From the NCBI GenBank assembly GCA_021324735.1, contig JAJPIO010000009.1, positions 1 to 64,000 of the forward strand: a DNA stretch of 64,000 nt. The letters are read 5' to 3'. The number at the start of each line of letters is the position of its first letter. The stretch's first letter is position 1. The DNA is from Bacteroidota bacterium (lineage in GTDB: Bacteria > Bacteroidota > Ignavibacteria > Palsa-1295). A program made the translations under genes and the position numbers. A model generated the notes under the pieces. The model made no database searches, was not told where the DNA came from, and was given only the letters and a program-made list of their open reading frames with translations. Of the stretch, positions 30,493 through 36,128 are shown one piece after another.

Positions 30493-30578
30493 TTTTGTGA
30501 TGAATTCGAGAATAACACAGATCGAGCGTGATTATTGCCCGTACGGTGCGTTCTCATGTCACCAAAAGATCAAGTCCT

Positions 30579-32114
30579 ATGAAGACCTATAGTATTGCTT
30601 TTTTCGCCTGCATACTGCTTGCGTGGAATGTGTCTGCTCAGACAGTGGGAACATGTAAAATATTTCCTTCGAAGAATCCGTGGAATGAGCGGGTCGATTC
30701 ACTGGCGGTGCATTGGAATTCCGATAAGTATTTGGGTCACATTTCGGGTAAGCATTTGCAGCCTGATTTCAGCATCCCGTTCAATGTGGTAGGGGCATCG
30801 CAGCCGTTCGTCAATGTAACGGCTACACTTTATCCCGATGAGAGCGATCCGGGGCCAATGCCTATTCCACCGAATGCACTTCAGGAACAACCACTTCCTC
30901 CCAGCGGGGACGCGCACGTTCTCGTGGTCGATACTGGCAATCATCGGCTCTATGAACTATATCAAGGAATAAAGCAAAGCGATAATAGCTGGGATGCATC
31001 GTCAACCGCGATCTTCGCGCTCGACTCGAATAATTATCGGCCGGATGGCTGGACCTCGTGCGATGCAGCGGGACTTCCGATCTTTCCAGGACTCCTTCGT
31101 TACGATGAGTGTGCGGCTGGCGAGATCAAGCACGCGCTTCGATTTACGATCCCTACCACACAGCGCGGCTGGATCTTTCCAGCCCGCCATCATGCCGGCT
31201 CGACAAACGATACGACCGTTCTTCCGATGGGCGCTCGTCTCCGATTAAAAGCCAGCTTTGATGATTCGAAGTTTACGGGTTTCGGAAAAGTGATCTCTAC
31301 CGCTCTAAAAAAATATGGTATTATCCTCGCCGATAATGGATCAGCCATTTTTATTTCCGGCGAACCGAATGCGAACTGGCCGCAGGAAGTACAACAGATA
31401 CGCGGTATCTATGCCAGCGATTTAGAAGTGGTCTACACAGGCCCGGTCCGAACCCAGTCAAATCAATATCCAACACCGGTCATTCCGCTCGATCCGCCAT
31501 CCGGTAACTCTGGCACTGGAGTTTTCCACGTTACTTCCAATCCATTTAGTTTTGGCGCTGTAAAGATCGGTGAGGCCGATACGATGAATGTGTCGATGTC
31601 GAATAGTGGCAACGGCGCGCTCATCGCAACGCCACTGACATTCGTTAGCAGTAATCCCGATTTTTCAATTCTCGCCGTCCAGCCGCAGAAGTTTCCGCCA
31701 GATACGCTTCAGCCGGGGGAGGCGATCACTGCAACGATCCGGTTTGCTCCAACGAAATTAGGGCGTGATACAACCACCTTTAGCTTGCAGATTTCTGGGT
31801 CACCCGGTACGCAAAGTGATACGACCGTTATCCTCGCAGGCGAAGGGCTGGCAAATTCAGGGATCACGCCGGATAAGCCAGCAACCGAGTTAGTCGTATA
31901 TCCGAATCCTACGGCAGAGAAAATCATAGTAGAAGCCGTACCCGATGTTTGTTCAGCAGAGATCGTGAATCTTACGGGGCAGAGCCTTTTCTCGACATCC
32001 ATGACGCCAGGGACGAATGTTGTAAAAGTTGAGGTCCTTCCTAACGGGGTATACCTGCTGAGGCTAAGGGGAAATTTTGGTGTCATCAGCAAGCTACTAG
32101 AAGTCCGGCGCTGA
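30579..32114 (+). CDS. secreted T9SS-cargo protein
   Basis: A 511-aa protein. The ATG at 30579 is preferred over an upstream frame start because it gives a signal peptide (MKTYSIAFFACILLAWNVSAQ). A first domain (about 25-290) begins CKIFPSKNPWNERVDSL and ends KYGIILADNGSAIFISG; I recall similar secreted bacterial proteins but no named function. It is followed by a choice-of-anchor-like immunoglobulin domain (about 325-420, FGAVKIGEADTMNVSMSNSG) and a Por-type type IX sorting domain (last 75 residues, VYPNPTAEKI to LPNGVYLLRL). It should be carried across the outer membrane by a type IX system encoded elsewhere. Confidence 0.82.
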   Translation: MKTYSIAFFACILLAWNVSAQTVGTCKIFPSKNPWNERVDSLAVHWNSDKYLGHISGKHLQPDFSIPFNVVGASQPFVNVTATLYPDESDPGPMPIPPNALQEQPLPPSGDAHVLVVDTGNHRLYELYQGIKQSDNSWDASSTAIFALDSNNYRPDGWTSCDAAGLPIFPGLLRYDECAAGEIKHALRFTIPTTQRGWIFPARHHAGSTNDTTVLPMGARLRLKASFDDSKFTGFGKVISTALKKYGIILADNGSAIFISGEPNANWPQEVQQIRGIYASDLEVVYTGPVRTQSNQYPTPVIPLDPPSGNSGTGVFHVTSNPFSFGAVKIGEADTMNVSMSNSGNGALIATPLTFVSSNPDFSILAVQPQKFPPDTLQPGEAITATIRFAPTKLGRDTTTFSLQISGSPGTQSDTTVILAGEGLANSGITPDKPATELVVYPNPTAEKIIVEAVPDVCSAEIVNLTGQSLFSTSMTPGTNVVKVEVLPNGVYLLRLRGNFGVISKLLEVRR

Positions 32115-33374: not shown

Positions 33375-35150
33375 TTAAGGATCCTTCACACATCGGCAGG
33401 ACTGGGAAAGCGTCTTATTGCCTCCGGCGACTCCGGCAGCCGCATTTCCAATATATAATACGAGATCATACGCATTTCCGGAATTCGTCGGATCATCTGT
33501 TGCGGTCCAAAAGAACCCCTCGAAGTTAAGGTTTTGACCGGATGTGCCTACATTATACCCACCAGGAAGTGCCGTAAAACCACTGCTGTTAGTTGCTCCC
33601 ACATTTGGCGAAGGAGGCGTTGTAAACCATAATGCGGAAGTATCTTTCAGCTTGCCTCCTGCGACGGCACTTCCACCAACGAACGTAACTAACTGATCCA
33701 CCTCCTGCTTGCTCGGGATATGCCATCCCTTCGGACATACACCTTGAACGCCGCTCGGGCTCGCTGTGGAGGAAGCAGCGCCCTGCATCGCGACACTCCA
33801 TGGATATAGTCTTCCGTAGATAGCACCATTGGCAGCATCGTTATTATAGGTGGTACTTCCCGAGGCATTGAAATTCAGATTCCGGGCCATCCACTTTTGC
33901 TTGCCAATGCAAACGGTCGCATACTTTTGGCCATCGCGTGTATCCATAAGCGTATCACCGCACCGGAAATAGCTATAGTCATTTGCCGCAAAATGTTTTA
34001 AGTACAATTTCGGACCATTAGGCCACCTGATATTGTCATCGAACTCCGTACCATTCGATTTCAGGTAACAGTGTCCTGTGCTGTCGGTATTTGTTATGAG
34101 TTGGGTAAGAAGAGAATCCTCCATAGCTACCGCAAAGTCATTGGATACCAGTGCGGAAGACCCATCGCTATGTGCATAGCTGTAATAACTGATCGGATGT
34201 AGGGCGGCAAATGCAGGTTCGATCGCGAGTGGAATGCCTTGGGTTGCCGGTTGTGTCTGGCCGCCATAACACATGTTCGCAAAAATAACGGAACCCGAGA
34301 GACTACTAATTTTGGAAACGTAATTGCTGGTTAGGACCACATGAAATGGAGTCCGGTAGGAAGTTTTCACTTGTTTCGGCCAACCAGGTTTCTGCGGATT
34401 AAGGGAGAGCCCTCTGGCTAGCATCAGTTGCCCCGCCTGTAAGTTGTCATAACCTGATTTTCCCAAATTGACATTAACCAAGACCCTTTCTCCTGCCGCA
34501 TAGGAGCTGAATGTATCGGGGAGTTCTGTGCCAATTAAGAATCCGTTCGGTAAGCCATGTGTGTCGAGGATCACGAGTCCGTAAGAACCGAATTGATCGA
34601 CGACGTCCGACGTGCATTCGGAGTTTTTTTTAACAGTCACCGTGAGTCCGAGGCTGGAGTTAGAGAATATGTTGAGCACGCTCTGGAACGTCGCAGCTTT
34701 GTAGAACTCATCAAATACGGGTGCAAAGATCAGGACATTCGTATTGGTGATATTATGATTAGCAAGCGTTTCAAACTGATGAAGCGATCCGCCACCACCC
34801 GGGCCACCACGGTTAATGCTAAAACCTGAATCATCTATTTCATCGAGGTAATACACTCCCGAAAGCCCGGACGTAAGCGTGAAATAAAGATAGCTACTAT
34901 CGAGCACACCGGCTGACTGAATGTTTGGCTGATGTTGCAGCCACGTTCCAGTTCGCATGAGTGCTGTGTGGTCGTTACCGTTTGTTGAATCAGCGTAATG
35001 GAGTAACTGATCTTCGACAGTGTCGAGGGTTCGGCCGACCTCCGATACCAAAGGTCCGGGTGGGCCATCTTGCATCGTCTGCGTTGGAGCGGAACACTGC
35101 GAAAATGTAAACCCCAGAATAAATAAACCAATAAACGTAGATATTCTCAT
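33375..35150 (-). CDS. lipoprotein with caspase-like peptidase pattern and FISUMP domain
   Basis: 591 aa from the ATG at 35150, which gives a lipoprotein-like signal (MRISTFIGLFILGFTFSQC, Cys19). Residues about 135-345 have alternating beta strands with DTHG at 196-199 and ANMCYGG at 291-297. This His-Gly and Cys-Gly spacing is the pattern of clan CD (caspase/gingipain/CHAT-like) cysteine peptidases, with candidate catalytic His198 and Cys294. The C-terminal 190 residues are a FISUMP domain (GQKYATVCIGKQKWMARNLN, GVCPKGWHIPS, GFFWTATD). The peptidase reading is inference; the FISUMP call is firm. It is exported, probably surface-exposed, and stands alone. Confidence 0.75.
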   Translation of the reverse strand: MRISTFIGLFILGFTFSQCSAPTQTMQDGPPGPLVSEVGRTLDTVEDQLLHYADSTNGNDHTALMRTGTWLQHQPNIQSAGVLDSSYLYFTLTSGLSGVYYLDEIDDSGFSINRGGPGGGGSLHQFETLANHNITNTNVLIFAPVFDEFYKAATFQSVLNIFSNSSLGLTVTVKKNSECTSDVVDQFGSYGLVILDTHGLPNGFLIGTELPDTFSSYAAGERVLVNVNLGKSGYDNLQAGQLMLARGLSLNPQKPGWPKQVKTSYRTPFHVVLTSNYVSKISSLSGSVIFANMCYGGQTQPATQGIPLAIEPAFAALHPISYYSYAHSDGSSALVSNDFAVAMEDSLLTQLITNTDSTGHCYLKSNGTEFDDNIRWPNGPKLYLKHFAANDYSYFRCGDTLMDTRDGQKYATVCIGKQKWMARNLNFNASGSTTYNNDAANGAIYGRLYPWSVAMQGAASSTASPSGVQGVCPKGWHIPSKQEVDQLVTFVGGSAVAGGKLKDTSALWFTTPPSPNVGATNSSGFTALPGGYNVGTSGQNLNFEGFFWTATDDPTNSGNAYDLVLYIGNAAAGVAGGNKTLSQSCRCVKDP

Positions 35151-35222: not shown

Positions 35223-36128
35223 TTAAGCTTTTGAGGTTCCAGAGAGGCTTTCCGTTGCTTTTACTCTCGGATAATAGAACGCAAGCATATATCCGCCGAC
35301 GATGATCATCGCGATCGAGATCCATTGTGCCATGGAGAGACCCCAATAGAGCGGATTAATACGAATGAATTCGATGAGCAATCGCTCGATGCCCATTACG
35401 ACCATTACTATCGAGAATACTTTGCCGGGCTCTGTGTCGAACTTCTTGCGATTATTCCAGATGAGGATAAAAGCGATCACACAAAAGATCGTCTCGTAAA
35501 CGGGCGCCGGATGCACCGTTACGATCTCATCGAAGCGAGAGATGCGGCTACCCATCATATCCTTGCCAACCGTGATCGCTGCAAGTGAATCATAATGCCA
35601 TTGGGCTCTCTCGATGGGATGTGTTTTGAAAAAGTCGATGAGTGTGTAGGTCGGCTTAGCTGTTCCCTGCGGGTAAGACATTGCCCAGGGCAGCTTGGAA
35701 GGAATACCATAATCGCCATCGCCGGCAAGCTGGCAACCAATGCGGCCGATACCATAGGCCAGCAACACAACAGGCGAGATCATGTCCGCAAACAATGAAA
35801 AGCGGAGTCCTTTACGTTTGATATAGAGGTAGATCCATATCGTACAAACGAGAAAACCTCCGTAAAACGTAAGCCCGGCAGGAGAGAAGAGTTGGCCCGT
35901 CGGGTCGTGCATGAAGTCGGACCAGTTCTCAAGAATTGAAAAAAGCTTTGAGCCAGCGATGCCACCAACGAGGCAGATCATAGTGATCTGGCCAGCCATT
36001 CGAGGGTCAAATCCACGCCGTCGAATTTCGGATGTAAAGAAGTAATTCGCAACCAGAAATGCTGTGGCCATCATAAGGCCAAAGCTGTAGAGCGTAATGG
36101 GTCCGATGTGGAAAAGGACGGGATACAT
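35223..36128 (-). CDS. lgt: prolipoprotein diacylglyceryl transferase
   Basis: A 301-aa, seven-helix membrane enzyme that adds diacylglycerol to the lipobox cysteine of prolipoproteins. Family features: GLTFYGGF in the third helix region, GRIGCQLAGDGDYG, and the C-terminal VMGIERLLIEFIR. The Asn usual in GRxGN is Cys here, a variation also known in other lineages. It serves the many lipoproteins in this window. Confidence 0.93.
   Translation of the reverse strand: MYPVLFHIGPITLYSFGLMMATAFLVANYFFTSEIRRRGFDPRMAGQITMICLVGGIAGSKLFSILENWSDFMHDPTGQLFSPAGLTFYGGFLVCTIWIYLYIKRKGLRFSLFADMISPVVLLAYGIGRIGCQLAGDGDYGIPSKLPWAMSYPQGTAKPTYTLIDFFKTHPIERAQWHYDSLAAITVGKDMMGSRISRFDEIVTVHPAPVYETIFCVIAFILIWNNRKKFDTEPGKVFSIVMVVMGIERLLIEFIRINPLYWGLSMAQWISIAMIIVGGYMLAFYYPRVKATESLSGTSKA

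Follow-up and report, generated by a model that had tools for sequence, protein, structure and literature searches.

Bacterial caspase-like proteins have mostly been seen as cytoplasmic cell-death or defence effectors, and the CHAT/C-type-lectin effectors of retroelement defence act in the cytoplasm. Among the peptidases of clan CD, the His and Cys lie just after strands, with a Gly next to the His; by residue numbers, the two residues are 42-49 positions apart in caspase-7, PmC11 and MARTX-CPD, and the gingipain prodomain is removed after an Arg (PMC4357240). The clostripain family C11 has a conserved Asp two positions ahead of its catalytic Cys, which is the S1 residue (PMC4850288); this residue makes C11 enzymes specific for Arg/Lys. 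Caspase-like domains have also been described together with other modules, i.e. FGE-sulfatase is the fifth most spread partner of metacaspases (PMC3501461), and CHAT proteins with C-type-lectin modules are diversified by retroelements (PMC10907252). Lipoproteins display FISUMP and FGE-type domains as binders, and DUF1566 and Fib_succ_major have been reported to be similar (PMC4159848); the Legionella protein Lcl binds glycosaminoglycans via a C-type-lectin-like domain (PMC11162425). Finally, the signal for surface export of Bacteroidota lipoproteins is C-x-K-(D/E)2 following the lipidated Cys (PMC5080379).

Here, we analysed a gene in a stretch of 64,000 nucleotides, referred to as the window, from a Bacteroidota bacterium. 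Metacaspase plus FGE-sulfatase (PMC3501461), CHAT plus C-type lectin (PMC10907252) and FISUMP lipoproteins (PMC4159848) are already known singly; the novelty lies in their combination within a predicted exported lipoprotein whose core Pfam and NCBIfam leave unclassified. Among the papers searched, none named Fib_succ_major together with caspase.

Results

Domain layout of the protein

The gene is an open frame with its ATG at 35150, and its product divides into a lipoprotein signal, a small N-terminal domain, a caspase-like core and a FISUMP domain (Table 1). TIGR02145 (FISUMP) matched residues 400-590 with E 1.8e-40 (139.5 bits vs a cut-off of 41.65) and PF09603 matched residues 413-589 with E 2.6e-25 (90.2 bits vs a cut-off of 33.9). 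When the whole protein was compared with Pfam at E up to 10, only FISUMP and Lcl_C were matched, and residues 1-398 had no Pfam or NCBIfam match at E up to 10. Similarly, a search of solved structures by sequence, with the window protein as well as with the family profile, found no peptidase. The initial annotation, made from the letters of the DNA, had read the protein as a lipoprotein in which a caspase-like His/Cys pattern with the motifs DTHG (196-199) and ANMCYGG (291-297) is joined to a FISUMP domain behind it; both motifs lie at exactly these positions, the FISUMP domain follows them with a score above the cut-off, and the fusion of export signal, caspase-like core and FISUMP proved to be a real architecture that recurs among relatives.

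Table 1. Features of the caspase-like/FISUMP lipoprotein gene and its upstream neighbour in the window
Feature	Position	Strand	Basis
Caspase-like/FISUMP lipoprotein gene, 591 aa	33375..35150	-	Whole-length architecture shared by relatives
Lipoprotein signal peptide MRISTFIGLFILGFTFSQ and putative lipid-acceptor Cys19	35094..35150	-	Sequence; Cys19 in 20/20 N-terminally complete relatives
N-terminal domain, residues 34-105, two helices and three strands	34836..35051	-	Model pLDDT about 90; alignment, both branches
R114-G115-G116 motif before low-confidence linker 115-128; candidate processing site	34803..34811	-	Conservation; pLDDT <50
Caspase-like (clan CD) core, residues 131-396, predicted	33963..34760	-	Structure comparison; family profile
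H198, predicted catalytic His, with Gly199 next	34557..34559	-	H 30/30; directly after strand 192-196
C294, predicted catalytic Cys	34269..34271	-	C 32/32; directly after strand 288-292
Large element between His and Cys strands, residues 201-286	34293..34550	-	Spacing counts; secondary structure
FISUMP domain, residues 400-590, C-type-lectin-like fold	33381..33953	-	TIGR02145; Lcl C-terminal domain match
lgt, prolipoprotein diacylglyceryl transferase; context, outside the protein	35223..36128	-	PF01790 E 4e-45

The core has a predicted caspase-like fold

We modelled the full-length protein with AlphaFold2 using an alignment of 22 sequences (pLDDT 84.6, pTM 0.72) as well as residues 30-398 alone (pLDDT 86.6, pTM 0.89). 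In a structure comparison with the latter model, clan CD folds were found throughout the 50 matches listed. SAVED-CHAT (8tl0_A; Z 14.4 over 175 residues, 2.9 A), separase (5fc2_B; Z 14.1 over 178 residues, 3.2 A) and the gingipain RgpB (4ief_D; Z 13.8) tied as the best matches, and were followed by Csx29 (Z 12.7), the anti-sigma factor DdvA (12.4) and Kgp (11.3) as well as, lower in the list, by legumain (Z 9.9), metacaspase (9.6), Raptor (9.5) and caspase-3 (9.2). Foldseek alone placed CED-3 first for residues 30-398 (E 1.3e-4, prob 1.00) and DdvA first for the full-length model (E 2.6e-4). 

The predicted model contains a caspase-like alpha/beta/alpha core (Z up to 14.4) in which H198-G199 follow strand 192-196 while C294 follows the neighbouring strand 288-292, i.e. 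neighbouring strands carry the His and the Cys at their C-terminal ends and a Gly is beside the His. In the model, the two motifs are thus at strand ends as in clan CD, as the initial annotation had proposed, and the fold prediction and search, set beforehand as the refuting test, returned a caspase-like fold with clan CD matches throughout the list. We conclude that, at the level of a predicted fold, the caspase-hemoglobinase type is well supported for the core, which carries a conserved His198/Cys294 dyad. Because this clan also includes dead folds such as Raptor, the protein is a putative peptidase.

The His/Cys pair is invariant and widely spaced

In a mixed alignment of both branches of the family (see below), H198 was present in 30/30, G199 in 31/31, C294 in 32/32 and N292 in 31/32 sequences, and Y190 and G191 were each present in 30/30. 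By branch, H198 was found in 15/15 and 15/15 and C294 in 17/17 and 15/15. Within residues 21-396 of the window protein, H198 and C294 are the only His and Cys that are conserved in both branches; because no other His or Cys is so conserved, the pattern goes beyond chance. Moreover, in a core alignment of 31 sequences with a mean column identity of 32%, the invariant columns were Y190, G191, H198, G199 and C294, and at this level of identity, a dyad that is invariant in about 30 relatives would hardly be expected in the absence of catalysis. Loss of the His and Cys among homologs had been named as a second way in which the caspase-like reading could fail, and both residues were kept throughout these counts. 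One array unit (L046/L056) has no His because its N-terminal half is missing; the L067 sequence is cut by a contig end.

The His and Cys are 96 residues apart in the window protein, 87-102 in branch A and 77-78 in branch B, vs 42-49 in the three proteins cited above; thus, the family is marked by an element that is inserted between these two strands. An Asn is located two residues before the Cys in 30/31 members (Asn292 in the window protein), and branch B has a CES-type motif at the Cys.

A conserved RGG motif precedes a disordered linker

The RGG motif at 114-116 lies between the putatively lipid-anchored N-domain and the core, directly before linker 115-128, which had a pLDDT <50 in the full-length model. 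In branch A, R114 and G115 are each present in 21/21 members. In the mixed set, R114 is present in 24/28 and GG in 28/28, the exceptions at R114 being Leu in three and Lys in one branch-B member. By analogy with the gingipain prodomain, self-cleavage near RGG could free the core. Against this, no acidic S1 residue is conserved at the C11 place among 31 members, and since an Asn replaces the S1 Asp of C11, a specificity for Arg114 is without support from the known pocket.

Predicted export signal and putative lipid anchor

The N-terminus, MRISTFIGLFILGFTFSQ-C, resembles a lipoprotein signal in which a hydrophobic segment is followed by Cys19, and this Cys is found in 20/20 of the relatives whose start is intact. 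In the lipobox (FSQ-C19), the Gln at -1 is atypical, a small residue being usual there; at this position the relatives carry Ser, Ala, Gly, His or Arg, many of them Ala, Ser or Gly. From the sequence and its conservation, we infer that the window protein is probably exported and lipidated on Cys19. 

Four branch-A members from Bacteroidia (two from L057, and those from L062 and L065) fit C-x-K-(D/E)2 with CKKEE, CKKDE, CKKED and CNKDD. This signal is absent after Cys19 in the window protein (CSAPTQTM); it is a Bacteroidota signal and may not be that of Kapaibacteria. The window protein may be exposed at the surface or in the periplasm. The gene lies downstream of lgt, which is directly upstream on the same strand. 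Because no Lgt homolog was present among the neighbours of the relatives checked, this adjacency is probably a coincidence.

The C-terminal module varies around a constant core

In the comparison with the full-length model, the FISUMP part matched the C-terminal domain of Legionella Lcl (8q4e_A) with Z 8.5, a value close to those attained by common arrangements; the weak match of the Lcl_C profile (E 0.045), the similarity between DUF1566 and Fib_succ_major (PMC4159848) and the C-type-lectin-like fold of Lcl (PMC11162425) agree with this fold match. An adhesion or recognition module had been proposed here and called unknown; the module itself stands as FISUMP, and "unknown" can be sharpened to a C-type-lectin-like fold by the match to Lcl (PMC11162425). 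The only two FISUMP proteins encoded in the genome of the window are both caspase-like/FISUMP fusions. In a relative from Prolixibacteraceae (L058), FGE-sulfatase replaces FISUMP at the same junction (PF03781, E 3.5e-49), and branch B ends in choice-of-anchor L (NF038133, above the cut-off in the four proteins scanned). Thus, all members have the core while the C-terminal binder is swapped, and this points to the core as the seat of the shared function.

Two branches with a patchy distribution

Branch A, to which the window protein belongs, has the order signal, N-domain, core and FISUMP. Branch B shares the N-domain and core, and has an extra N-terminal region of ~150 residues in addition to choice-of-anchor L; its members (L021, L023-L026, L028, L030-L037) form a separate group of larger lipoproteins. 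A paralog with 41% identity is present in the same genome as the window protein (G000:C2:4234-5985), and 6/13 genomes of the taxonomic family carry the gene. 

Scanning genome contigs with the window protein alone gave no relatives; these were found only with an alignment. When the 294 genomes of the class were searched with a profile, 26 had matches at E 0.001, and in two of these the match was a non-member. These weak matches were discarded: by eye, L039 looks like a protein of the alcohol-dehydrogenase type, and L040 is of the TPR-CHAT type. L005 matched with 26% identity over 103 residues (E 9.5e-4). In an even sampling of 395 genomes from across the phylum, the family profile matched just 3 at 1e-6 and, therefore, the family has a patchy distribution. 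Degenerate patterns run against 84,980 species genomes located 16 loci, from Kapaibacterium, Sphingobacteriales, Bacteroidales, Prolixibacteraceae, Flavipsychrobacter and the cultured isolate Terrimonas ginsenosidimutans NA20 (L068); judging by these relatives, the window probably comes from a Kapaibacterium-type bacterium. Viral contigs contained no relatives whether a single sequence or the alignment was used as query, and plasmids and phages gave no match; because of the latter, the gene is unlike mobile-element cargo.

Tandem copies are present in L045 (three), L046 (five units, one of them decayed), L052 (two) and L057 (two). In L056:6717-9851, and equally in L046, a 1045-aa frame joins two family units, the first of which is without the N-domain and the catalytic His, like a decayed copy read into its neighbour. 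Beyond tandem copies of the family itself, no conserved gene neighbourhood was found around the relatives, and a scan for promoters and terminators near the gene in the window gave counts at chance level. As individual observations, in a relative, a gene for a TIR-TPR protein (L047:3483-5198) is directly upstream of a caspase-like/FISUMP gene; two Sphingobacteriales loci (L057:3581-4018 and L062:5348-5767) encode homologous proteins of 140-146 aa with no Pfam match just upstream of the caspase-like gene(s); and window positions 30528-32114, flanked by the genes for DUF2520 and gapdh, encode a secreted protein that has an Ig-like domain and ends in a tail for type IX secretion.

Discussion

Altogether, we consider it likely that the window protein is an envelope-anchored clan CD (caspase/CHAT/gingipain-like) cysteine peptidase, its catalysis being presumed, that is aimed by its own recognition module. 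In the mechanism that we propose, the protein would be exported and lipidated on Cys19, and the core, for which a fold is predicted, would act as a cysteine peptidase by means of the His198/Cys294 dyad. More tentatively, the enzyme would probably be held in a latent or tethered state by the small N-domain together with the disordered linker that follows RGG, and a cut near RGG might release or activate it. FISUMP would most likely bind a surface glycan or protein, and this binding could direct cleavage to a particular envelope or extracellular target.

An account that we regard as rather unlikely is that the caspase-like part is a pseudo-enzyme or processing-only domain, which matures or sheds a FISUMP adhesin in a single self-cleavage event, so that the protein is in effect an adhesin. 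Such a function would fit the conserved RGG in front of the disordered linker, the display of FISUMP/FGE-type domains as binders on lipoproteins (PMC4159848), and the multicopy arrays with varied C-terminal domains, which resemble adhesin families; however, it is the caspase core that is constant and the binder that is swapped, suggesting that the core holds the shared function, and R114 is not universal in branch B. It is improbable that the fold serves as a structural sensor that relays an envelope signal without proteolysis, as the part of DdvA with a caspase-like fold might. With the full model as query, Foldseek ranked DdvA first (E 2.6e-4), and DdvA has Z 12.4 in the structure comparison, but the full model shows no transmembrane or cytoplasmic segment besides the lipoprotein signal, and a dyad that stays invariant in about 30 relatives, with a mean column identity of 32%, also argues against a sensor.

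The structure model and the relatives contradict a chance likeness, i.e. that short HG and NxC motifs happen to occur in an unrelated alpha/beta protein. No peptidase family was matched above its cut-off by sequence, as would be expected for such a protein; yet clan CD folds occur throughout the listed structure matches, conservation of the His and Cys is complete, and the nearest sub-threshold Pfam family, touched by 7/31 members, is CHAT. We therefore hold a chance likeness to be highly implausible. Equally remote is the idea that the protein is the target of a diversity-generating retroelement with the caspase domain as a defence effector, even though retroelements are known to target FISUMP as well as FGE domains (PMC4159848, PMC8143477) and CHAT plus C-type-lectin targets exist (PMC10907252). 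For this genome, of 3.55 Mb and rated 100% complete, it was ruled out by a whole-genome search for PF00078, which found no reverse transcriptase; it could still hold in relatives. Moreover, the window protein is predicted to be exported, whereas the defence effectors of this kind are cytoplasmic.

The family, which Pfam and NCBIfam miss, would put an apparently intact caspase-type active site, with presumed catalysis, in the envelope, and joins this site to a type of binding module that is used by adhesins and hypervariable receptors. It thus provides a first concrete candidate function for some uncharacterised FISUMP lipoproteins, and bears on whether lectin-fold modules aim bacterial proteases.

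By sequence, the core belongs to none of the named clan CD families, and CHAT is the nearest, below threshold. PF12770 was touched below its cut-off by 7/31 members (best E 0.01); no member reached the gathering score and the window protein was unmatched. In a profile-profile comparison, the family and CHAT aligned over 50 columns around the strand and THG turn (P 0.0005, with a probability of only 31%). Proteins with CHAT (SAVED-CHAT, Csx29/TPR-CHAT) are the best or tied-best fold match (Z 14.4), and share the short similarity over the strand and THG turn and, with branch B, the CES-type motif. Unlike the cytoplasmic CHAT proteins, the window family would be exported as lipoproteins, and has an N-domain of its own, an Asn two residues before the Cys and a His-Cys spacing of 77-102. 

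Gingipains (C25) resemble the family in fold (RgpB Z 13.8, Kgp Z 11.3), and are peptidases of clan CD that Bacteroidota export and that are extended at the N-terminus. By contrast, gingipains carry a T9SS tail and an Ig-like domain instead of a putative lipid anchor and FISUMP, and the His-Cys spacing by RgpB numbering is about 23-33 vs 77-102; neither Peptidase C25 nor C14 in Pfam was matched by the window protein (E up to 10) or by any member scanned. The separase catalytic domain (C50) ties with CHAT and RgpB in fold (Z 14.1), but separase is eukaryotic, cytosolic and securin-regulated, and has no sequence match with the window protein. The C11 peptidases (PmC11, BT C11) are caspase-like in fold as well (Z 7.9 for 6n9j_A among the matches of the full-length model), with His and Cys at neighbouring strand ends; the family differs in that it has neither the Asp two residues before the Cys nor the helical C-terminal domain of C11. 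Membership in C11 was rejected: Asn replaces the S1 Asp, PF03415 was not matched, and the profiles gave no alignment.

Other FISUMP/DUF1566 lipoproteins, such as the Mfa2-FISUMP lipoprotein (PMC4159848), have the same lipoprotein signal and C-terminal FISUMP; the window protein is set apart from them by its caspase-like domain and by a genome without a retroelement. Finally, orthocaspases also combine a caspase-like domain with a C-type-lectin-like FGE domain, the same partner as in L058; while their core is Peptidase_C14, that of the window family is unclassified and is accompanied by a predicted lipoprotein signal and, in most cases, by FISUMP.
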